The notes beneath the pieces were generated by a model. It saw only the letters and a program-made list of their open reading frames with translations. It ran no database searches and was not told where the DNA came from. Of a DNA stretch of 64,000 bases, positions 3,609 to 60,301 are shown piece after piece. Source of the stretch: Holdemania massiliensis AP2 (GTDB lineage Bacteria > Bacillota_I > Bacilli_A > Erysipelotrichales > Erysipelotrichaceae); assembly GCF_000327285.1 (NCBI RefSeq), contig NZ_HE998568.1:722786-786785 (forward strand), in the 5' to 3' direction. Position 1 is the first letter of the stretch. The number at the start of each line of letters is the position of its first letter. A program made the position numbers and the translations under genes.

Positions 3609-4173
3609 CTTATCCGCCTCTTTTCTGCCGCTATTGTATCACATCCAATCAGTTTGGACTTCTTCACCGCATTAAGATTTCATTAAAATCGCAGCAGCGG
3701 AAAAATCATTTTAACCAGCAATTTTTCTGCCGCAAAGCCATGCTGAAAATTCAATCGCAGCACTTCTTTCTGATCATGGATATGTGCAAAATGTTCCTTA
3801 TCGTTCATTAAGGTCAGTCGACCTTCACCATTGCGCTGCGTGTGGGGATTTCCCGCAGCCGCAGCTGAGTCCTATTCAAAGATGTCTTATTTCTGTCTGA
3901 TTCTTAAGCCCACTCAAAATAAAGCCTTTTGCTAAAACTTCTGTTTTTTCGTCATGCCTGCCGGTTTCGTTTTACGAAAATAGTTTTTCTTTTTCTGAAA
4001 ATCTTCGCAGGATTTTTGAAATATGAATTACAATAGAGTTATCCCAGTCGGGATCAGGCTAACCAAACATGCAGCTCAAGGCTGAGTCCATCAAATTAAC
4101 AATTTCAATTGGAAAACACTGCCCATTAAGATATAAAGTTGAAATCCAAGCATCATACAGGAAGAGGGAAAAT
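3609..4173. other. Divergent intergenic region kdpD / diguanylate cyclase
   Basis: This 565-base gap should hold the two divergent promoters. A TACAAT box on the minus strand 25-30 bases before kdpD and another TACAAT near 4030 on the plus strand are the best -10 candidates; neither has a convincing -35. Small hairpins are visible: AAGGTC/GACCTT at 3810-3825, and ATCCC/GGGAT followed by CTCA/TGAG between about 4040 and 4085 in the presumed cyclase leader. None matches a riboswitch known to me. Short open frames crossing the gap lack ribosome sites. Confidence 0.4.
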
Positions 4174-6099
4174 ATGAAACATAATATCTTACTGAAAACC
4201 AATATCTTAGTCTGTCTGGTTGTTTTTCTCGGCTTTTTAGCCACGGCTGTGCTGAGCTATCAGATGAATTATTCCGCTTCCGTCAAAAATATAGAACAAG
4301 TATCCGAACTGACTTCGGAAGGCATTTATTATCAAATGACGATGTTGTTTACCAAGCCGGTTAATATTTCGCTGACCATGGCGAACGACAGTCTGCTGCG
4401 CAGTGCGTTAATTGAAGAAAGTGCTAATCTGAATAATCCGAAGTATGAAGCGGTTCTGACAGAATATCTGAAAACTTATCATGATCAAACGAATTACGAC
4501 TCCGTATTTTTAGTTTCATCCGCTTCTCAGCGTTATTACAATTATGACGGACTGGATCGAATTCTCACACCGGAAAACCCGGAAGATGACTGGTATTATA
4601 CAATGGCGGAATCGGATCAAGAATATGCAATGAATGTCGACAACGATGAAGTTAAAGCTAAAAATAACGAGATTACCGTATTTGTGAACTGCAAGATTAC
4701 AGATGATCAGGGACAGCTTTTGGGGATCGTCGGCGTCGGTTTGCAGATTGATTCTCTGCAGGCTTTGATTCAAAGCTATGAGGAACAGTATCAGGTACAG
4801 GCATTTTTGATCAATAACGCCGGAGATATTGAAATTTCCTCGCACCACACCGGCTATGAAAAAGTGAACTTGTTTTCATTATATCCCTATCCCGATGAGG
4901 TACAGGATGCCGTTTTAAACTGGCAGGGAGGCGACGCTTCAAGTCCTTTCTGGGTTGCTGACCCGCAGGACAGTCAGGGACGAGATTACGTAATTTCGCG
5001 CAGCATTCCACAGCTGCAATGGCATTTGTTTGTCCGGCAGGATACTGGTAAATTATTAAAATCACTGCAGCGGCAGCTATGGCTGTCCGCCTTCATCATC
5101 GTTTTGATCATACTCTTTATTCTATATATTATCACACGGGTTATCCGAAGCTTTAACCAACAGATTATTGAACTGACGCAGTCCGTTGAACAGGAAAAAC
5201 GGTCCACCTTTGAAAAAGCAACCGAGGAATTGTTTGACAACATCTATGAATTGGACATCACGCATAATTGTCCGGCCGATGCAGAAACGCAGAAGTATTT
5301 TGAAAGTCTGGGTGCGCCGGCCGGTACGCCTTATGATCAGGCCCTGCAGGTCGTTGCTGAAAAACAGATCAAAGCGGAATTCCGGCAGGGGTATGTCGAT
5401 ACCTTTACGCCTGTCAATGTGATCCGCGCGTATGAAAACGGACAGGATACTTTGACCTATGAATTCATGATTTCCACCGGCGGGGATTATTTCTGGATGC
5501 GGATAACGGCACGGATCATTCAGCAGGAAAAGGATCAGTCGCTGCACATGCTGACATATCGGCAGAATATTGATGCTGAAAAACGGCAGGAAAAACGGCT
5601 TCAGGCTTTGGCTCAGATCGATGAGATGACGCATCTGCTGACAAAAAGTGCAACGCGGCGGCATATTGAACAAAAGCTTCAAGCTTGCCCGAATCAGCAA
5701 TTTGCTTTTTTCATCTTCGATATTGATACATTTAAAGAAGCGAACGACCGTTACGGCCATGTTTTTGGAGATTCGGTGATTGAAGACTTTGCCGCTGTGC
5801 TTTGCTCCCAGTTTCGGCAGGATGACATTATCGGGCGGATCGGCGGCGATGAATTCGCAGTCTTCATTCCCATCACCGGCTCTGCCGATGTTGAAGATAA
5901 GGCAAAAGCTTTATCGAAGGCTTTAAATAAAACGCATACCGCGCTGGGCTGCACCTGGATGATGAGCGCCAGCATCGGCATCGCGCTGGCACCGCAGGAT
6001 GGCTGTGACTTTGAAACGCTGTATCAAAGTGCTGACGCCGCTTTATATCAAACTAAAAAGCGAGGGAAAAACAGTTATTCCTTTCATAAAGCTTCTTAA
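4174..6099 (+). CDS. Membrane diguanylate cyclase with Cache-type sensor
   Basis: Predicted to make cyclic di-GMP from two GTP in response to an extracellular signal. A first membrane helix (about 10-30) is followed by a roughly 270-residue extracellular Cache-like region, a second helix (LSAFIIVLIILFILYIIT), a PAS-like stretch and a C-terminal GGDEF domain. The active-site GGDEF is intact at about 557-561, and an RxxD inhibitory site (RQDD) sits exactly five residues before it, so product inhibition is expected. The frame is open from 4069, but AGGAAGAGGG just before 4174 fixes the start, giving 641 residues. No EAL or HD-GYP phosphodiesterase domain is fused or adjacent. Confidence 0.9.
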   Translation: MKHNILLKTNILVCLVVFLGFLATAVLSYQMNYSASVKNIEQVSELTSEGIYYQMTMLFTKPVNISLTMANDSLLRSALIEESANLNNPKYEAVLTEYLKTYHDQTNYDSVFLVSSASQRYYNYDGLDRILTPENPEDDWYYTMAESDQEYAMNVDNDEVKAKNNEITVFVNCKITDDQGQLLGIVGVGLQIDSLQALIQSYEEQYQVQAFLINNAGDIEISSHHTGYEKVNLFSLYPYPDEVQDAVLNWQGGDASSPFWVADPQDSQGRDYVISRSIPQLQWHLFVRQDTGKLLKSLQRQLWLSAFIIVLIILFILYIITRVIRSFNQQIIELTQSVEQEKRSTFEKATEELFDNIYELDITHNCPADAETQKYFESLGAPAGTPYDQALQVVAEKQIKAEFRQGYVDTFTPVNVIRAYENGQDTLTYEFMISTGGDYFWMRITARIIQQEKDQSLHMLTYRQNIDAEKRQEKRLQALAQIDEMTHLLTKSATRRHIEQKLQACPNQQFAFFIFDIDTFKEANDRYGHVFGDSVIEDFAAVLCSQFRQDDIIGRIGGDEFAVFIPITGSADVEDKAKALSKALNKTHTALGCTWMMSASIGIALAPQDGCDFETLYQSADAALYQTKKRGKNSYSFHKAS

Positions 6100-6219: not shown

Positions 6220-7134
6220 ATGGAATCTGCAGTCACGATATTTAATCAAATTCTGAAAATGTTTCTGATGATGAGCGTCGGCTTTTTGCTTTACCGCAAA
6301 AAAACAATCAACGACGATACAACCGCACGGCTCTCAAATATTTTACTGATGGTGGCTACTCCCTGCACAATTATCACTTCGTTTAACCAGACCTACACGC
6401 CGGAAAAGCTGCAGGGACTGATCCTGGCTTTTGGGCTGAGTCTGGCCGTCTATGCCGCTAATATCATGATCGCCGGCGTACTGTGCAAGCGGGAAGAACG
6501 GGTAGAAAAATTCGCCTTGGTCTTCTCCAATGCCGGATTTCTCGGAATTCCGCTGGTGACTGGGCTCTTGGGCATTGAAGCGGTTTTTTATTTATCGCCC
6601 TTCATCGTCTGCTTCTATTTGTACGCCTGGACGTATGGAGTGATTGTGATGTCCGGTACCCGGGAGGGCGTCACGTTCAAAAAGATTCTGACCAATCCCT
6701 GTATCTGGGCGATGGCTGTGGGCGTGCTTGTCTTTCTGCTTCCGCAGAAACCACCGGTACCCGTCATGGAAGCCGTCGCTTCGCTGGGCTCCATGAATAC
6801 ACCGCTGGCAATGTTGGTGCTGGGCGCTTATCTGGCAAAAAGTCCGCTTATTCATATGTTTAAAAACATCGCGGCTTACCGGATCAGTGTTTACCGGCTA
6901 GTTTTGATTCCCGCGTTTTTACTGGCGGCGCTGAGTCTGGTACCGGACACCTTCGCAACGATCCGGACGGTGATTCTGGTTTCTGCCTGCGCCCCCTCTG
7001 CCGCTTTGGCACCGGTTTTTGCCCAGATGTTTCACCGCGATATCAGTCTGGGTGCAGAAATTGTCAGCTTGTCCACCATACTCTGTCTTTTCACCTTGCC
7101 GGTTGTCATCATGCTTTCGGAGATGATCTGGTAA
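6220..7134 (+). CDS. AEC-family (auxin efflux carrier/malate permease-like) transporter
   Basis: Integral membrane protein of 304 residues with about ten hydrophobic segments, beginning with a short helix and the RLSNILLMVATPC motif. The Pro/Cys in a broken helix is characteristic of the AEC superfamily (MdcF/YfdV/MleP relatives). These carriers move organic acids or related anions, and the substrate cannot be read from sequence. The start follows GAGGAGG by five bases. It stands alone between the diguanylate cyclase and the convergent flavin reductase gene, and shares a bidirectional terminator with the latter. A link with organic-acid export from the neighbouring reductase is conceivable but only inferred. 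Confidence 0.85.
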   Translation: MESAVTIFNQILKMFLMMSVGFLLYRKKTINDDTTARLSNILLMVATPCTIITSFNQTYTPEKLQGLILAFGLSLAVYAANIMIAGVLCKREERVEKFALVFSNAGFLGIPLVTGLLGIEAVFYLSPFIVCFYLYAWTYGVIVMSGTREGVTFKKILTNPCIWAMAVGVLVFLLPQKPPVPVMEAVASLGSMNTPLAMLVLGAYLAKSPLIHMFKNIAAYRISVYRLVLIPAFLLAALSLVPDTFATIRTVILVSACAPSAALAPVFAQMFHRDISLGAEIVSLSTILCLFTLPVVIMLSEMIW

Positions 7135-7255: not shown

Positions 7256-9043
7256 TTATTTTGAAGCGTTTTCGCCCGCGATGCGTCCGAATACCGTGAT
7301 ATCCGACAGCGCATCCGAACCTAAACGATTGGTTCCATGAATGCCGCCGGTGACCTCACCTGCCGCGTACAGACCCTCAATCACGTTGCCGTCCTGATTG
7401 ATGACCTGCGCGTTCGCATTGATCTGAACACCACCCATCGTATGATGAACAGCCGGGGCTGCCTTGACAATGTAGTAAGGTCCCGTTTCGATCTTAGCCG
7501 GCATCGAGCGCTTGTTGAATTCCGGATCCACACCCGCTTCAACATAGCTGTTGTAATTTTCCACCGTCTTTTTCAGTTCTTCAGCATCAATACCAAAGAA
7601 ATTTGCCGCTTCTTCCAGCGTATCCGCCTTGACCATCAATCCTGCCTGGGTCAGATAATCCAACTCTGCCGCATGATTTTCCTGCAGTTTGCTCAGATCA
7701 AAGCCGTTCTGATCCACCAATTCGTAACAAACATGACCGGTCTGATCCTTAATTGCCATCGACATAACGTCGCGCCGTCCTAGTTCCTCGACAAACCGCT
7801 TGCCTTCTTTGTTGACAATCACCGTGTAGCCGTACAGACGAGCATCGTCATAATACAGCAGGGCTCCGGTTGTCGGATCACAGATCGGATAAGTCTGAAT
7901 GTATTCCATCCCGACCAGATTCGCTCCAACCTTCGTCGCCATGGTGATGCCGTCGCCGGTGGAGCCCACTGAATTCGTGGACAGAATGGATTCGTCTATC
8001 TGCGGATCATACTGCTTGCGCATTTCAATATTTGAGCCGAACCCGCCGGTGGTTAAAATCACATTTTTTGCGGTAAAGGTGTAATCGGTATTTTTACCTT
8101 CCGCTTTCACGCCGATAACACGGCCGGTTTCATCGGTGATCAGCTCGGTAGCGCGGGTATCCAGCAGCAGCGGAATTCCCAGTTCCTCGGCTTTCGCCTG
8201 TTCCTTTTTAATGATCTCAGCTCCGCTGGCGCCTAAAGGAATCAGCGAACGCTTAACCGAGTGACCGCCGAAGAACATCAGCTCGTCTTCCCATACTACG
8301 TTGCAGGTATCCCGCAGCCATTCTGCCCCCGCCAAGGCATTGTCCGCAACAACCTTGACCAGCTCCGGATCATTCAGATGATCGCCGCCCGTCAGCATAT
8401 CCTGCGCCATCAGCTCAGCGTTGTCTTCAATGCCTTCCGCTGCCTGCAGCCAGTTGCCCGGCGCGGCATATTCAGCTCCGGAAATCAGCGTATTGCCTCC
8501 GGCCATCGGCATTTTTTCAACAATAATCACATCGGCGCCGTTCATCTTCGCTGTAATTGCCGCCGCAAAACCAGCCCCGCCGGCCCCGATAACCACTACA
8601 TCATGGGTTTCTTCCTTCGCTGTCCGTTCTGCGGATTCCGGTGTTCCGGCATCGATCTTTTTCAGCATTTCTTTGCTTGCCCCGGCTGCCGCCAATGCGT
8701 TATTAACAGCCTCTAAGAAGCCGTTGGATGTCGCAGTCGCCCCCGAAACGGCATCCTGATCGACGCTGTTGGTTGCCAGAATCGCTTCCGTCAGCGTATC
8801 CATCGCCTTGTCAATACCGGCGGTTTCATCATTCTTGGTGATCGTGATCGCTGTAATCGTATCGTCCTTGATCGTGACTTCTACCCCGATAATTCCGCCG
8901 CGGCCATTGCCTTCACCGGCATAAGTTCCATCTGCAATCGCATTCGCTGTTGATGGCTGTGCCGGTGTTTTCGACTGATCCCCGCAGCCGGCCAGTCCCA
9001 GGATCAATAGCCCGGACAACATCAGCGCACATAATTTCTTCAT
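7256..9043 (-). CDS. Extracytoplasmic flavin reductase, probable urocanate reductase (UrdA-like)
   Basis: Surface lipoprotein of 595 residues that should pass electrons to a small unsaturated acid. A lipobox ends at C20. An FMN-binding domain (about 35-120) carries SGAT, with T103 the likely ApbE-flavinylated residue. A flavocytochrome-c FAD domain begins at the GAGGAG motif (about 153). Counting from Y385 (in IQTYP), the residues D400, R423, H533 and R573 fall at the spacings I recall for UrdA Y373, D388, R411, H520 and R560, allowing one inserted residue. Fumarate reductases have His where Y385 sits. Product would be imidazole propionate. It is divergent from a two-component system. Neither apbE nor histidine-degradation genes are in the window. 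Confidence 0.8.
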   Translation of the reverse strand: MKKLCALMLSGLLILGLAGCGDQSKTPAQPSTANAIADGTYAGEGNGRGGIIGVEVTIKDDTITAITITKNDETAGIDKAMDTLTEAILATNSVDQDAVSGATATSNGFLEAVNNALAAAGASKEMLKKIDAGTPESAERTAKEETHDVVVIGAGGAGFAAAITAKMNGADVIIVEKMPMAGGNTLISGAEYAAPGNWLQAAEGIEDNAELMAQDMLTGGDHLNDPELVKVVADNALAGAEWLRDTCNVVWEDELMFFGGHSVKRSLIPLGASGAEIIKKEQAKAEELGIPLLLDTRATELITDETGRVIGVKAEGKNTDYTFTAKNVILTTGGFGSNIEMRKQYDPQIDESILSTNSVGSTGDGITMATKVGANLVGMEYIQTYPICDPTTGALLYYDDARLYGYTVIVNKEGKRFVEELGRRDVMSMAIKDQTGHVCYELVDQNGFDLSKLQENHAAELDYLTQAGLMVKADTLEEAANFFGIDAEELKKTVENYNSYVEAGVDPEFNKRSMPAKIETGPYYIVKAAPAVHHTMGGVQINANAQVINQDGNVIEGLYAAGEVTGGIHGTNRLGSDALSDITVFGRIAGENASK

Positions 9044-9079
9044 TTGTTTTCCTCCTTTTGTTAACTTATTGACAATGCT

Positions 9080-9108
9080 ATTTTATCATGCTGCAATCAT
9101 GTTGGCTT
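9080..9108 (-). promoter_or_regulatory. Candidate activator-dependent promoter of the flavin reductase
   Basis: On the minus strand a TAAAAT -10 box (9080-9085) has only a poor -35 (AAGCCA, 9103-9108) at 17-base spacing. A weak -35 touched by a direct-repeat site fits dependence on a bound activator. Confidence 0.45.
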
Positions 9109-9134
9109 TGCACTGGTTTGTTATTTTTTGCACT
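9107..9134. promoter_or_regulatory. Direct repeat, candidate AraC-type regulator site
   Basis: TTTGCACT occurs at 9107-9114 and again at 9127-9134, a 20-base period or about two helical turns on one DNA face. It lies between the divergent reductase and kinase genes and overlaps the reductase -35. This geometry is typical of two-helix AraC domains such as the neighbouring YesN-like regulator. Confidence 0.5.
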
Positions 9135-9224: not shown

Positions 9225-10943
9225 ATGATGACATTGCGGACAAAACTCTGCTGGTCGTTTCTGGCCTGCATTCTGATTGTGTTCTTGCCGATTCTGACCA
9301 TTACCGAAACCCAGCTGCGCCCGGCCAGTGAAAAACAGACTTTGCAGCAGACCCGTCAGCTGGTCAATGCGAAAGCCGCGGAAGTGGGTTCCTGGCTGAA
9401 CCAGCGGATCAGTGAAATCCGGATTATCCATGAATTTCCCGGCACGCAGTCGCTGGATTTTGATCAGCTTCGCCCCTATCTTTCTTCCCTCAACGAAGTT
9501 CTGCGCCAGCAGTACGGCAACCCCGAGGAAGCCTTCGCGGTTGGAGGCTTGGATGGACAGGGCTGGATTAATGACAAACTGACGATTGACGTGCATCAGC
9601 GTCCCTATTTTATTGAAGCCATGGCCACCGACCAGGAGTATGTCATCAGCAAGCCGGTCATCTCCAAGTCCGACGCCAAGCCGATCTTTCTGATCTGTTA
9701 TCCGATCCGCAATGAGAACGATAAAAAAATCGGCTTTATCAACGGATCTGTCAATCTGGATAAATTTACGGATATCCTGTCCTCCGTCAGCATTTACGAT
9801 GGATTTTCATGGATCATGAACCGCGAAGGTCTGGCCTATACCGCGGCGCCTGAGGTTTTCGATGAAATTCAGCTGACTGATGATGATCTTCAGGCGCTTG
9901 CCGGGCAGGCTGAAGTCACCGGTTATTTAAAGTTGGATTCCGACCGTTCCGACACGATCTTCTATGCCTCGGTTCCCTATGCCCCAGGGTGGCTGTACTG
10001 CGTTCAGGTCAGCGATGCGAAACTGTTTTCTTCGTTCGATCAGGTTGTTGGGATGATGATCGGCTTCGCCTTCTTTTTGTTAATCTGCGCCGCGCTTTTA
10101 GCCTGGCGGCTGTCCAATTCTATCACCGCGCCGTTAAAACGCCTTGAACAGAGTGTTCTGGCCGTCGCCAACGGAAATTTGAATACGGTGTTCCATAATT
10201 CGGGATCGGATGAAATTGTCCGGCTGGGCCGTTCCTTCAACGAGATGGTGACCCAGCTCAGACAATTGATCAATCAGGTTATTTCGGTTCAGCAGCAGAA
10301 ACGCAAAGCGGAATTAAGGGCGCTGCAGGCGCAGATCAATCCCCATTTTTTATATAACACATTGGATACGATTCAATGGAAAGCGCTGGAACATGACGCC
10401 GGGGAGGTTTCGGATATGATCTGGCAGCTTTCTCAAATGTTCCGCATCGCGTTAAACGACGGCCGCGAGCTGATTCCCGTTGCCGATGAAATCCGGCATG
10501 TGGAAAGTTATCTGACGCTGCAGAAAATGCGGCTTCCTGATCAGTTTGCCTATACGCTGAACGTTGAGCCGGGATGCAGCGAAATCCTGATTCCCAAGCT
10601 GATCCTGCAGCCTTTGGTGGAAAACTGCTTGGTTCATGGTTTGGATCGGAAACGAAAAGATGGACAGATCGCGATTGAAATCCGCCGTCAGGGTGAATTG
10701 ATCGTGTTGTCGGTTCAGGATAACGGCAAGGGGCTGGATCCGCAGCGTCTGCAGCGTTTGATGCAGGAGTTGGCCAGCCATCAGGAATCGGATCATTATG
10801 GTTTATACAACATCAACGAACGGCTGTACCTGACCTATCGTGATCAGTACCGCTTGACTCTGGAAAGTCCGTTGGGAAAAGGCTTTCGGATCACATTAAC
10901 GTTCCCGGCTGAGGAGGAAAACACATGCTTCGCGTCATTGTAG
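9225..10943 (+). CDS. YesM/LytS-type sensor histidine kinase with Cache domain
   Basis: Membrane kinase of 572 residues. A first helix (about 10-27), an extracellular double-Cache-like region (about 30-270, with the RPYFIEAMATDQEYV block), a second helix (about 275-295), a HAMP linker, then the His_kinase domain with QINPHFLYNTLD (phospho-H374) and an ATPase domain with NGKGLD. Two ATG codons are adjacent (9225, 9228); the second is better spaced from AGAGGG. The gene overlaps the next regulator gene by 19 bases, so the pair is one operon. Its divergent position beside the reductase suggests it senses the substrate or a related carboxylate. Confidence 0.88.
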   Translation: MMTLRTKLCWSFLACILIVFLPILTITETQLRPASEKQTLQQTRQLVNAKAAEVGSWLNQRISEIRIIHEFPGTQSLDFDQLRPYLSSLNEVLRQQYGNPEEAFAVGGLDGQGWINDKLTIDVHQRPYFIEAMATDQEYVISKPVISKSDAKPIFLICYPIRNENDKKIGFINGSVNLDKFTDILSSVSIYDGFSWIMNREGLAYTAAPEVFDEIQLTDDDLQALAGQAEVTGYLKLDSDRSDTIFYASVPYAPGWLYCVQVSDAKLFSSFDQVVGMMIGFAFFLLICAALLAWRLSNSITAPLKRLEQSVLAVANGNLNTVFHNSGSDEIVRLGRSFNEMVTQLRQLINQVISVQQQKRKAELRALQAQINPHFLYNTLDTIQWKALEHDAGEVSDMIWQLSQMFRIALNDGRELIPVADEIRHVESYLTLQKMRLPDQFAYTLNVEPGCSEILIPKLILQPLVENCLVHGLDRKRKDGQIAIEIRRQGELIVLSVQDNGKGLDPQRLQRLMQELASHQESDHYGLYNINERLYLTYRDQYRLTLESPLGKGFRITLTFPAEEENTCFASL

Positions 10944-11671
10944 CCGATGATGAACCGGTCATCCGCAATGGAATTGTTCATCTGATCGAATCCAGCGGTC
11001 TGGATTTAAAAGTAGCCGGGACTGCCGAAGATGGCCGGGAAGCGGTGGAGCTGGTTCAGAAGCTGGATCCGGAAATCATCATTATGGATATCAACATGCC
11101 TCAGCTCAATGGACTGGAAGCGATTGGGGAAATCCGCAAAAGCTCACCGGACTGCCGGATTCTGATCGTATCCGGTTACAGCGATTTTGCTTACGCCCAG
11201 CAGGCGATTGATTTAGGCGTCTGCAAATATTTGTTAAAACCGCTGGATATCCATGGCTTTGTGCCGATTCTCCAACAGGCGATGGACAGCTGGACCCAGC
11301 TTCACCGTAAAGCCAATCCGGCCTCCTTCAATGAAGAAGATGCTTTTCAAGATAAAGGACTGGCTGCCTTTCATTATGTCCGGGATCACTTTACTGAAAA
11401 TACCCTGAATCTCACCGACGCTGCCCAGCGTTTTTATCTCAGTCCGTCCTATCTGTCCCGAATCATCAAAGAAAAAACCAGTCTTTCCTTTACCGATTAC
11501 CTGAACCGGTTAAGAATTGATCTGGCTGAATCGCTGATGCTGGAAAATCCGGGCATGACGATGAATGAAGTGGCGCTGCAGTGCGGCTACAGCTCCCAGC
11601 ACTATTTCAGCCGGGCGTTTAAAAATTACACCGGCATGACGCCGATTGCCTTTAAGAATAAACCCCGCTGA
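10925..11671 (+). CDS. YesN-type response regulator with AraC DNA-binding domain
   Basis: Partner of the preceding kinase. The receiver domain (about 1-125) has the acidic pair near residue 9, phospho-acceptor D55 in IIIMDINMPQ, and K in YLLKPLD. The C-terminal AraC domain (about 145-245) contains two helix-turn-helix units, the second with MNEVALQCGYSSQHYFSRAFK. The start lies inside the kinase end with GAGGAGG in front. Expected to bind the 20-base direct repeat at 9107-9134 and activate the flavin reductase. The target assignment is inferred from position. Confidence 0.88.
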   Translation: MLRVIVADDEPVIRNGIVHLIESSGLDLKVAGTAEDGREAVELVQKLDPEIIIMDINMPQLNGLEAIGEIRKSSPDCRILIVSGYSDFAYAQQAIDLGVCKYLLKPLDIHGFVPILQQAMDSWTQLHRKANPASFNEEDAFQDKGLAAFHYVRDHFTENTLNLTDAAQRFYLSPSYLSRIIKEKTSLSFTDYLNRLRIDLAESLMLENPGMTMNEVALQCGYSSQHYFSRAFKNYTGMTPIAFKNKPR

Positions 11672-35554: not shown

Positions 35555-37018
35555 TCATTTTCCCTGATCATGATCAATCGGAAAGATCAGTGTAAACGTG
35601 GTTCCAACGCCAAGTTTGCTCGTAACCTGAATCTCAATCTGATGACGCACGGCAATTTCTTTGGCGATCGCTAATCCCATGCCGGAGCTGCCGCATTCAA
35701 TCCCCTTTCCCTGACGATAAAACCGTTTGAAGATGTTGGAGAGGGCTTCCTGATCCATCCCCACACCTTCATCCTGAATCACAATCTCCCCCTTTTGCGT
35801 TTGATAATAATAGATCGACTTGCCGGATTCTGTATATTTTACCGCATTGTCCAAAATCAACATCAGCAGCTTGCGGATCAATTCATAATCTCCCAGCATG
35901 ACAAAATCATTTTCCGGTGCCTGCGTTACGAATTGGATTTTCTTTTTCATCGCCATGCCGCGGGCGCTCATCGCCGTGTCCGACATCACCTCAGACAGAT
36001 GCACGGGCTCCTGTTTAATCTTGAATTCCTTGGTTTTTAGCGTTGAGATCATCAACAGATCCTGAATCAGTTTTTGTAAATACCGGCTTTCTGATAGCAT
36101 CTGCTGATAATAAGCTGCGACGTCCTCCGGATTTTTGATCACGCCGTCGGCCAGAGCTTCCAGTGAACCGCGGATCACGGTGACTGGTGTTTTCAGCTCA
36201 TGGGAAATATCCGCCAGGAAGTTATCGTGCATTTTCGCTTCATTTTTCTGAATTTCCTTACTTTTGCGAAGCTCAATCGCAAGCTGATCCATCGAATAAG
36301 CCAGCTCTCCGATTTCATCCTTCTGATGAATATGAGTCTGGATCGTTAAATTCCCCTGTGCCAGCTCCTTGGCGATCAGCGTGATCTTGCGGATCGGAGC
36401 GGTAAAGCGATTCGACATAAAAACGATGACCAACAGAAGCAGCAGTAAAACCACCAGCGTCAAGCCAAACAGAAAGCTGTTGATCTTGGACTGCATCGCG
36501 ATGGAATCGCTGGCCTGATGCAGAATCAGAATGATGCCGACCGTTTCCCCGCTGACATTTTGAATCGGCGCCGCGCCGGCAATGATATGCCCGTCGGAAG
36601 TGGGAAACTCGATGCAGGAGCTTTCTCCCGCCAGCGCTGAATCTCGAACGGTTTCCGCTTCCGGAATTAAACTTATATCCTGCTTTTCAATCAGCTGATT
36701 GTCATTTAAGTAGAGATATTGACCATTTCGATCACACAGCGAATAGCTGTAATCACTGATATCCGAAAGCATCGCCAAACTGTACTCCACGTTTTCCAGG
36801 CTTTTGATCGACTGAATGAAATTCTCCGGTCCTGTTTTTTCCGGAAGCATCCGTTCAAACGTTTCCGCTACGTTTTCTGCTCCGCGGAAAATAATATCAA
36901 CATGATGCGAGTTTAAAACATCCGCTGTAAAATGCGAAAAATTGTAAACTAAAATCACGGCATAGCTCACAATGACCACGCCGAACATCAGCACTAACTT
37001 AGTGGTCAGCTTGCTCAT
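35555..37018 (-). CDS. Sensor histidine kinase next to the second flavin reductase
   Basis: Kinase of 487 residues: helix 1 (about 8-28), an extracellular domain of about 150 residues, helix 2 (LFGLTLVVLLLLLLVIVFM), HAMP, HisKA with LADISHELKTPVTVIRGSLEAL, and an ATPase domain with DNAVKYTESG, DEGVGMD and GSSGMGLAIAKE. The start at 37018 follows GAGG by nine bases and overlaps the end of the regulator gene by 20 bases. Domain layout resembles PhoR/ResE-type kinases. Divergent from the reductase gene, with a shared regulatory gap. Confidence 0.87.
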   Translation of the reverse strand: MSKLTTKLVLMFGVVIVSYAVILVYNFSHFTADVLNSHHVDIIFRGAENVAETFERMLPEKTGPENFIQSIKSLENVEYSLAMLSDISDYSYSLCDRNGQYLYLNDNQLIEKQDISLIPEAETVRDSALAGESSCIEFPTSDGHIIAGAAPIQNVSGETVGIILILHQASDSIAMQSKINSFLFGLTLVVLLLLLLVIVFMSNRFTAPIRKITLIAKELAQGNLTIQTHIHQKDEIGELAYSMDQLAIELRKSKEIQKNEAKMHDNFLADISHELKTPVTVIRGSLEALADGVIKNPEDVAAYYQQMLSESRYLQKLIQDLLMISTLKTKEFKIKQEPVHLSEVMSDTAMSARGMAMKKKIQFVTQAPENDFVMLGDYELIRKLLMLILDNAVKYTESGKSIYYYQTQKGEIVIQDEGVGMDQEALSNIFKRFYRQGKGIECGSSGMGLAIAKEIAVRHQIEIQVTSKLGVGTTFTLIFPIDHDQGK

Positions 37019-37703
37019 GCTTCTTTTCCTCGTAAGCAAAACTGTAGCCTACGCCCCAGATCGTTTTGATTGAGAAACAGGGATGCGGAACTTCATCCAG
37101 TTTGGCGCGCAGCCGCTTCACACAGGAATCCACTGCCCGATCATAACTCTCTCCACTGTAGCCCCAGACCAGATCCAACAGAATCTCACGGGAATAAACC
37201 CGGCCGGGATGGGAAGCAAGCAGGACAAGCAACTCCATTTCCTTCTTGGTCAGATTGATCGGTTTACCATCCAGACTGACTAAATTCCGGCTTTCCTGAA
37301 TCATTAAATTGCCATAGACAAAGTCGGCTTGTTCCGGATTTTCCTCGGTTCGGCGCAGCACCGCGCGAATCCGCGCCATGACTTCCTGGCAGGAAAAGGG
37401 TTTGAGAATATAATCATCCGCGCCGATATCCAGTCCCATAACCCGATCCTGATCCGCTGTCTTAGCGGTAATCATCAGGATCGGAACACGCGATACCTTG
37501 CGGATGCATTGACAGACTTCAAAGCCGTCGATATCCGGAAGCATAACGTCCAACAGGATCACATCCGGCTTGTAGTTGGTGAAATAGGCCAAACCTTCCT
37601 GTCCGTTGTGCGCGATCAGCATCGTATAGCCCGCTTCTTTTCCATAATGATACAAAATGTTGCAGATGGATTCGTTGTCATCCACTATTAAAATCGTTTT
37701 CAT
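36999..37703 (-). CDS. OmpR-family response regulator next to the second flavin reductase
   Basis: Regulator of 234 residues. The receiver has VDDNES (acidic pair near 7-8), phospho-acceptor Asp in DVILLDVMLPDIDG (about 52) and K of LKPFS. The winged-helix domain ends in SIKTIWGVGYSF. First gene of a two-gene operon with its kinase. Its promoter overlaps an 11-base-period direct repeat that also abuts the reductase promoter, so it probably controls both directions. Confidence 0.88.
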   Translation of the reverse strand: MKTILIVDDNESICNILYHYGKEAGYTMLIAHNGQEGLAYFTNYKPDVILLDVMLPDIDGFEVCQCIRKVSRVPILMITAKTADQDRVMGLDIGADDYILKPFSCQEVMARIRAVLRRTEENPEQADFVYGNLMIQESRNLVSLDGKPINLTKKEMELLVLLASHPGRVYSREILLDLVWGYSGESYDRAVDSCVKRLRAKLDEVPHPCFSIKTIWGVGYSFAYEEKKHEQADH

Positions 37704-58312: not shown

Positions 58313-60301
58313 ATGTTTGATCTTGATTCGCTGACTGAAACCGCCTTGGACATCCTCCGTTTTGACGGTGAAATTGGCGATACGCTGACGGAGCTGCGCA
58401 GGCATTGGGGCCAATCTGTTCCGGCACTGTTTGACGCTCGTCTCGATCATATCGTTTTGCAATACAGACCTTTTGAGCATGAAGTCGGTGTTCAGGCTTT
58501 AGGCCAGGAGCTGAGTGCTTTGGGTTGGGGACTTTATGACTTGGGTGAAGAGGATGAATACTTGTTTATCATGATTTCAGATGCTCAAAAAGACGATTTT
58601 GAAAAACAGTGCCGCAAAGCAAAGTACAACTTCAAACGGATGAAGCAGCGCGGCCGCAAGTGGGGGCAGCCGGCCAAAACGCAGAGTCTGCAGCCTGTCA
58701 TGCCCTGTCAAGATGTTTATTTTCCGGATGACGCCTATTATACTATTCAGGAAATTGCCGGAAACTTTGCCAGCGGCATCTGGATTGCGAAAGAGGATGA
58801 TCAGCAGGGAAAATTTGTCGCTGATCTGAGGAATTCCCCGCTCCAGCCTATCCGTGTTCAATGGAAAGATTTCCGGGAGTTGACCTATTCTCAGGAACTT
58901 GATTTTTATGCCGCGATCTATTCCTCGCCGTATTCCGATCACGTCATTGGCGGCAAAGATCCGGCCCGGATCAATGACTGGCCGGCGCTCACACCCAGGT
59001 CGATGAAGAAACTGGGCAGGCTGTACTGGTTCTGCGACCGGCTGTGCTGCGGAGATGAAGAAAGTCTTCTCTTCCTGACAATGAATGAGCGCGGCTGCGA
59101 AAACACCCAGCGGTTCATTTTATCCGCCAGCGATGAGGAATGTAAGCTGGCCGCCGATGGACAAGGCCGGATTTTTGCCCAGCGTCATCGCCGCGACAGT
59201 CGGCTGACCTGTTATGAAAATCAGGATCTGAAGGCTTATCCGTTTTTACGCATGAAAGATTATGATGCCCTTGGCAACAGCATCCCAATCCCTGGAACCT
59301 CCCGTCTGCTGATGATCAAAGAAACCTGGGGTGATGGTGATACGAAAGGCAATCTCTTTGATTTAGATATGGACAACGGACACTGTCAAATTGTTCCGCT
59401 GCCGGGCATGGGTGAGAATTTAAAAATCCGGCATTTCACTGGCGATTGGGTGCTGATTTATAATTCCGGCGAGGACTTCCGCACCGACTTTGCGCAGCTC
59501 TGGAACCCAAAAACAAACGAAATCCTGCGCATCCGATCCGGTATGTTCGGACTCCAAAAACCTGATCATATCGTGGCGCTGCCGGATGGTCAGGTTGTGA
59601 TCACAACCCGGCATTCCCAGATTGGCAGTGTCCTTCATCAACCGGAAGATTTCTGGACATTTCTGCGCACAGCCAACAAGCCGAAGAAACTGGGAAAATG
59701 GCTTCGCTATTCTGCGTCCTACCCGAACATCCCCCACACCCTGCCAAAGTCCAGGGGAAAGTCCTGTCAATACAAGCTGTCCAAGTTGGTAGAGCCTGTG
59801 CTGAAATTCAAAAACCTGAATTTTAAGCTGGCGGTGATGAACGTGCTGATGTATGACAAGGCGTTATTGGAGCCCAAGTTTGACATCTGGGAATTTGCGG
59901 ATGAATATAGCCGGCGCAGAATCGATCCGGAAACTGAGGGCTATGATCAAATGATTCCGGAAGCGGCGAACTGGTTTCGGCGTTACCCCATCCCGGCCCG
60001 ACTAGCCTTGGAAATCACCCGAATTGATATGGACGGCGGTGATGAAATTAACTGTCAGCTTGCCCCCAATTGGGATGGGGAAGATGAGCTGTTTAATATT
60101 CAGGCCATTACTCCAGAGGAGTTAAGCCAGTTTCCGCGGCTTCAGCGGGCATCCATCTTTACGACTCAGGATCGCTCGGTTGTCCCCGTATTCCGCCAAT
60201 GCGGAATTACAGTCGTTTCTGCCTATGACGTTCCTTTTGATATCGAAGATGCCGATGCTGATCCACAGGCAAACGCCTTCAATGAAAAAGGACAACATTA
60301 A
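58313..60301 (+). CDS. Large hypothetical protein, C-terminal domain possibly DUF6892-like
   Basis: Protein of 662 residues. The N-terminal third has no landmark. The middle (about 280-490) reads like repeated beta blades (for example RLLMIKETWGDGDTKGNLFDLDMDNG and WVLIYNSGEDF), suggesting a propeller. The C-terminal 140 residues (NFKLAVMNVLMYDKALLEPKFDIWEFADEY onward) resemble a domain I recall as DUF6892, seen in Firmicutes; this is from memory and moderate. No signal peptide. It follows the DUF1266 gene in a tight pair after GGAGG. Confidence 0.65.
   Translation: MFDLDSLTETALDILRFDGEIGDTLTELRRHWGQSVPALFDARLDHIVLQYRPFEHEVGVQALGQELSALGWGLYDLGEEDEYLFIMISDAQKDDFEKQCRKAKYNFKRMKQRGRKWGQPAKTQSLQPVMPCQDVYFPDDAYYTIQEIAGNFASGIWIAKEDDQQGKFVADLRNSPLQPIRVQWKDFRELTYSQELDFYAAIYSSPYSDHVIGGKDPARINDWPALTPRSMKKLGRLYWFCDRLCCGDEESLLFLTMNERGCENTQRFILSASDEECKLAADGQGRIFAQRHRRDSRLTCYENQDLKAYPFLRMKDYDALGNSIPIPGTSRLLMIKETWGDGDTKGNLFDLDMDNGHCQIVPLPGMGENLKIRHFTGDWVLIYNSGEDFRTDFAQLWNPKTNEILRIRSGMFGLQKPDHIVALPDGQVVITTRHSQIGSVLHQPEDFWTFLRTANKPKKLGKWLRYSASYPNIPHTLPKSRGKSCQYKLSKLVEPVLKFKNLNFKLAVMNVLMYDKALLEPKFDIWEFADEYSRRRIDPETEGYDQMIPEAANWFRRYPIPARLALEITRIDMDGGDEINCQLAPNWDGEDELFNIQAITPEELSQFPRLQRASIFTTQDRSVVPVFRQCGITVVSAYDVPFDIEDADADPQANAFNEKGQH

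Follow-up and report, generated by a model that had tools for sequence, protein, structure and literature searches.

The reductase gene and its neighbourhood

The window, that is the whole stretch of 64,000 nucleotides of Holdemania massiliensis AP2 that was analysed, contains on its minus strand a gene for a putative flavin-dependent reductase (Table 1), hereafter called the query. The plus-strand reading frame over the same positions is riddled with stops. An earlier note on this DNA had described the product as a Gram-positive surface lipoprotein, which agrees with the lipobox LAGC and its Cys20 in the translation, lipidation being predicted. The SGAT motif fits the [S/T]GA[S/T] rule for covalent flavinylation (PMC8238504), and Thr103 is the predicted FMN site. 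N-terminal FMN domain (PF04205), motif and ApbE, the combination looked for in a urocanate reductase, are all present, as the genome encodes two ApbE proteins, one of them adjoining rnfC. With the NCBIfam model TIGR01813 (flavocytochrome c) the query scores 489.8 bits, above the curated cut-off of 285.45.

A sensor histidine kinase gene and a response regulator gene are divergently oriented to the reductase gene, and a putative operator lies in between. Two further neighbours, an AEC transporter (6220-7134) and a GGDEF protein (4069-6099), were considered as members of the same system and left out because they are not conserved beside the reductase gene.

Table 1. Features of the reductase locus; positions refer to the window
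Feature	Position	Strand	Basis
Reductase gene, 595 aa: lipoprotein signal, FMN_bind, FAD_binding_2 with clamp domain	7256..9043	-	
Predicted signal peptide, lipobox LAGC, Cys20 predicted lipidated	8984..9043	-	read from translation
FMN_bind, residues 47-117	8693..8905	-	Pfam PF04205, E 6e-14
SGAT flavinylation motif, residues 100-103	8735..8737 (Thr103)	-	motif position
FAD_binding_2, residues 148-578, clamp domain included	7310..8602	-	Pfam PF00890, E 3.1e-76; 6t86 superposition
E191 = UrdA Glu177, imidazole contact	8471..8473	-	invariant in alignment of relatives
Y385 = UrdA Tyr373; His in fumarate reductase	7889..7891	-	alignment
D400 = UrdA Asp388, imidazole contact; UrdA D388A inactive	7844..7846	-	alignment
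R424 = UrdA Arg411, proton donor	7772..7774	-	alignment
H533 = UrdA His520, carboxylate	7445..7447	-	alignment
R573 = UrdA Arg560, carboxylate salt bridge	7325..7327	-	alignment
Ribosome-binding site AAGGAGG	9051..9057	-	read from sequence
Putative direct-repeat operator AGTGCAAA-N12-AGTGCAAA, 20-bp period	9107..9134	-	zero-mismatch, one of two in genome
Divergent sensor histidine kinase: dCache_1, HAMP, His_kinase, HATPase_c	9225..10943	+	Pfam; conserved beside reductase
Response regulator with AraC-type HTH, overlaps end of kinase gene	10925..11671	+	Pfam; conserved beside reductase

Similarity to UrdA and the substrate pocket

The best sequence match in the PDB is the urocanate reductase UrdA (E 1.9e-142, 479 bits; the highest-scoring fumarate reductase reaches 330 bits), and the identity is 51% to UrdA and 41% to the fumarate reductase Fcc3. 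An AlphaFold2 model calculated from a 37-sequence alignment (mean pLDDT 88.9) gives the same ranking. Its top PDB fold match is Shewanella UrdA 6t86 (rmsd 1.4 Å over 452 residues, Z 57.0, TM 0.97 over the target), followed by the flavocytochrome c3 family with Z about 47-48. The query has the FAD and clamp domains in common with S. oneidensis UrdA (PDB 6t85-6t88), and also the N-terminal FMN domain, whose covalent FMN is published for UrdA and predicted here. It differs from UrdA in being a Gram-positive lipoprotein and in several pocket residues.

Residue numbers were compared by alignment of the query to S. oneidensis UrdA, a check which the earlier note had itself proposed. That note had equated Y385, D400, R423, H533 and R573 with UrdA Y373, D388, R411, H520 and R560, all five spacings matching with one inserted residue. 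All five residues are present, and four of them map as it said (Y373=Y385, D388=D400, H520=H533, R560=R573). The insertion exists as well, but it follows G405 and thus lies between D400 and the catalytic Arg; the proton-donor Arg411 therefore corresponds to R424 and R423 to UrdA R410, and the spacing from D400 to this Arg is 24 and not 23. Two matches had escaped the note, E177=E191 and F245=F258, and R390=R402 is conserved too. E191, F258, Y385, D400, R424, H533 and R573 are invariant in the 37 aligned relatives, canonical UrdA-type proteins among them. Departures from UrdA are F243 to M256, A387 to D399, F391 to L403 and G563 to S576.

Not all of these matches are equally informative. In the UrdA structure the urocanate carboxylate is bound by R560, R411, H520 and the Gly563 backbone, contacts that fumarate reductases make as well, and E177 and D388 bind the imidazole; D388 and R411 belong to the clamp domain (PMC7921117). 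The complete catalytic set R424, H533 and R573 in the query therefore does not discriminate between the two enzymes. Tyr373, which the earlier note had listed as binding urocanate, makes no contact with it in the published structure; it nevertheless affects specificity, as the Y373H variant gains low fumarate activity while none is detectable for the wild type (PMC7921117). Hence, it is Y385, D400 and E191 that discriminate, and E191 is the weakest of them because the UrdA authors found E177 not to be conserved in their alignment of gut UrdA sequences (PMC7921117). D400 is one of the residues (Asp, Asn or Gln) looked for at position 388 in an enzyme that binds imidazole. The same authors name 373, 391 and Ala387 as the three positions which mark the S. 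oneidensis pocket (PMC7921117), and of these the query keeps only 373, with L403 and D399 at the others.

Fumarate is hardly credible as the substrate, despite the fold and the carboxylate-binding Arg and His residues common to the query and Fcc3. UrdA itself is without detectable fumarate activity (PMC7921117), fumarate reductases score lower, and they form a separate clade. In addition, Fcc3 has His where the query has Tyr385, Glu in the proton path where the query has Asp, and a heme domain where the query has an FMN domain. The query thus falls on the UrdA side of the Tyr/His distinction put forward in the earlier note, but Tyr alone is not diagnostic: two paralogues (L003 and L004), which fall outside the UrdA-related clades in our tree, keep Tyr and Glu but carry Tyr or Ala at the position of D388.

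Reductases of this family are numerous in the genome, with 51 loci, six of which are short match fragments. This is in line with the large reductase sets reportedly described for Erysipelotrichaceae by Little et al. in 2024, where related reductases are said to act on varied acrylates. Such a family invites the reading that the query reduces a neutral aryl acrylate of the cinnamate, coumarate or indoleacrylate type, as for other superfamily members. We regard this as very improbable, since the two positions that hold the imidazole nitrogens are invariably acidic (E191 and D400), which a neutral ring would not need. Many members of the 51-locus set are located beside regulators, and some have Tyr at 373 and lack Asp at 388.

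The window encodes a second FMN_bind/FAD_binding_2 lipoprotein reductase (L009, 37754-39661, plus strand), which is adjoined by a kinase/OmpR-type regulator pair (35555-37703, minus strand). It has L, A and S at positions 411, 520 and 560, where the alignment is uncertain; as the carboxylate-binding Arg and His are missing in this alignment, L009 may act on a substrate other than a carboxylate. A protein with a C-terminal DUF6892 is encoded at 58313-60301 (plus strand).

Groups of related reductases and the remodelled lid

The named relatives were grouped by their pocket signature at UrdA positions 177, 243, 245, 373, 387, 388, 390, 391, 411, 520, 560 and 563. Group A, canonical UrdA, reads E F F Y A D R F R H R G. 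Group B, the query type, reads E M F Y D D R L R H R S and has the one inserted residue. Group C, named after the paralogue L002, begins E L F Y G D R L, and group D, the Anaerococcus and Peptoniphilus type, E M F Y G D R L. In a tree calculated by a quick method with SH-aLRT support only, groups B and D fall together in a clade of 25 rows (SH-aLRT 99), with group C next and group A beside them.

The query is most closely related to sequences from Brevibacillus daliensis, a Lachnospiraceae MAG, Tissierella, Sedimentibacter and Treponema, a distribution which suggests horizontal spread of the query-type gene. A plasmid scan revealed only relatives below 60% identity. Among the four Holdemania genomes searched the query type occurs in H. 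massiliensis AP2 only. Two others contain the L002 type; these proteins match H. filiformis and Holdemania sp. Marseille-P2844, one of them (L022) being identical to the H. filiformis protein in the tree. L002 itself (C2:155180-156547 of the query genome; the type of L064 of H. filiformis) is the closest paralogue, is 63-64% identical to the query and has Y373, D388, E177, a lipobox, the same kinase type and the operator in common with it. It differs by Gly at 387 and by the missing FMN_bind domain, and may depend on a separate flavinylated donor.

The main doubt about a urocanate reductase concerns, as judged from the alignment, the remodelled lid (F243 to M, F391 to L, A387 to D and one insertion). 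Group D bears on this point. A review of Koh et al. 2018 (PMC11872695) counts Anaerococcus prevotii, Brevibacillus laterosporus and S. oneidensis among the true producers of imidazole propionate, with a UrdA of the Tyr or Met type. The A. prevotii genome (G101), recognised by exact identity and position of plasmid pAPRE01, contains two family members only (E 1e-10), a His-type fumarate reductase and the group D protein L135, its single Tyr-type homologue, which is of the lid-variant kind. L135 belongs to the same 25-row clade as the query, is 51% identical to it over the whole protein and has M243, L391, S563, Y373, D388 and E177; in contrast to the query it has Gly and not Asp at 387, and the kinase/regulator pair conserved at query-type loci was not seen beside the Anaerococcus genes examined. 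As this is the sole Tyr-type homologue of a listed producer, the group D lid (M243, L391, S563) probably goes with urocanate reduction. Phe391 and Ala387 were for the same reason not taken as family-defining, because A. prevotii has Leu and Gly there. The query thus lies between groups functionally assigned to urocanate reduction, canonical UrdA (Shewanella, B. laterosporus) and the A. prevotii enzyme.

The changed lid could also make room for an extra sulfur, and the substrate would then be another close imidazole-acrylate, for example thiourocanate from ergothioneine. The lid residues of the whole clade and the one insertion do differ from canonical UrdA, and Clostridium mobile (L128), a query-type genome, encodes a relative of ergothionase (523 bits to 6s7j) together with a reductase of the lid variant EMFYGDRM. 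Such an ergothionase relative was however recognised in only one of 17 query-type genomes versus hutH in nine, and A. prevotii, whose enzyme has most of the lid changes, is reported as an imidazole propionate maker (PMC11872695). We therefore consider thiourocanate quite unlikely as the substrate of the query. C. mobile itself (L035, L128), with a lid-variant query-type reductase, hutH and the ergothionase relative, is a candidate for thiourocanate reduction.

Conserved regulation, metabolic setting and predicted function

A dCache_1/HAMP/His_kinase protein and an AraC-type regulator are encoded divergently from the reductase at nearly 50 examined loci, and the pair adjoins canonical, query-type and L002-type genes. 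Groups A, B and C have homologous sensors, in which W57, R61, E64, Y97, R126, Y128, S147 and Y191 are shared. The direct repeat is located between the sensor and reductase genes, in group B 61-80 bp before the start codon. At least 13 of 16 matches at exactly the 20-bp period are found at 11 of 13 group B and 10 of 15 group C loci (shuffles expect 0.00 and 0.05), numbers which overstate the evidence because related sequences are not independent. Within the whole genome the zero-mismatch repeat occurs twice, before the query gene and before L002, and the reversed control pattern not at all. Most group A loci keep only the GTGCAAATAC half; at canonical UrdA loci, operator and sensor resemble their query-type counterparts only in part (22% identity between the sensors). 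A literature search for a two-component system of urdA found no description, and the conserved pair with its putative operator appears to be new.

These features allow the reading that the query and L002 types are a separately regulated acrylate-reductase lineage, with a lid remodelled for a different imidazole-acrylate and a dedicated dCache sensor for that compound, which we think unlikely.

Neither hutH nor hutU was found in the query genome (3.81 Mb, 96.8% complete), and urocanate must therefore come from outside. Ergothionase appears absent from it as well, since the hutH model used for the search picks up ergothionase when present (L128). Among the relatives hutH is commoner in query-type genomes (9/17 versus 6/29 in the other relatives; Fisher p 0.048, uncorrected for relatedness), which speaks for urocanate as the substrate. 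It is encoded elsewhere, and in no relative examined does it lie beside the reductase gene, which counts against this substrate. Weak Treponema matches were not counted, because they are tyrosine-aminomutase-like (best PDB match 2rjr). A 2026 preprint reports that all urdA-encoding gut strains tested turn urocanate into imidazole propionate, and that only those which also have hutH make it from histidine (PMC13320830). By its gene content, the query genome would belong to the urdA-only class of that study. The statement of the earlier note that the protein makes imidazole propionate can thus be kept as a prediction for the enzyme, whereas the organism would require external urocanate.

UrdA as best match by sequence and fold, the tree, the pocket residues and the conserved regulation together support the reading of the earlier note, and we consider the query a probable urocanate reductase. 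It is an ordinary but well-founded annotation within the known UrdA enzyme family. The lipid-anchored, extracytoplasmic and flavinylated enzyme would reduce urocanate, taken up from the surroundings, for anaerobic respiration or redox disposal. Electrons would pass from the membrane (RNF and/or quinol) to FMN on Thr103 and further to FAD. With the carboxylate held by R573, H533 and R424 and the imidazole by E191 and D400, a hydride from FAD N5 would be transferred to the acrylate double bond and a proton donated by R424, giving imidazole propionate. The dCache kinase and the AraC-type regulator would respond to the substrate, or to a compound related to it, by activating the gene at the AGTGCAAA repeat. 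Substrate, electron donor and inducer are what we infer from these comparisons.

A metagenome study used 'not His at 373' as its rule for UrdA (PMC7676231), which is too loose, because paralogues described here keep Tyr although the essential Asp is missing. The inducer could be approached directly through the conserved kinase, regulator and putative operator. Because of the link between imidazole propionate and impaired glucose tolerance, it matters which gut bacteria can make this metabolite; with H. massiliensis AP2 one Holdemania species joins the candidate producers, and it would depend on cross-fed urocanate.
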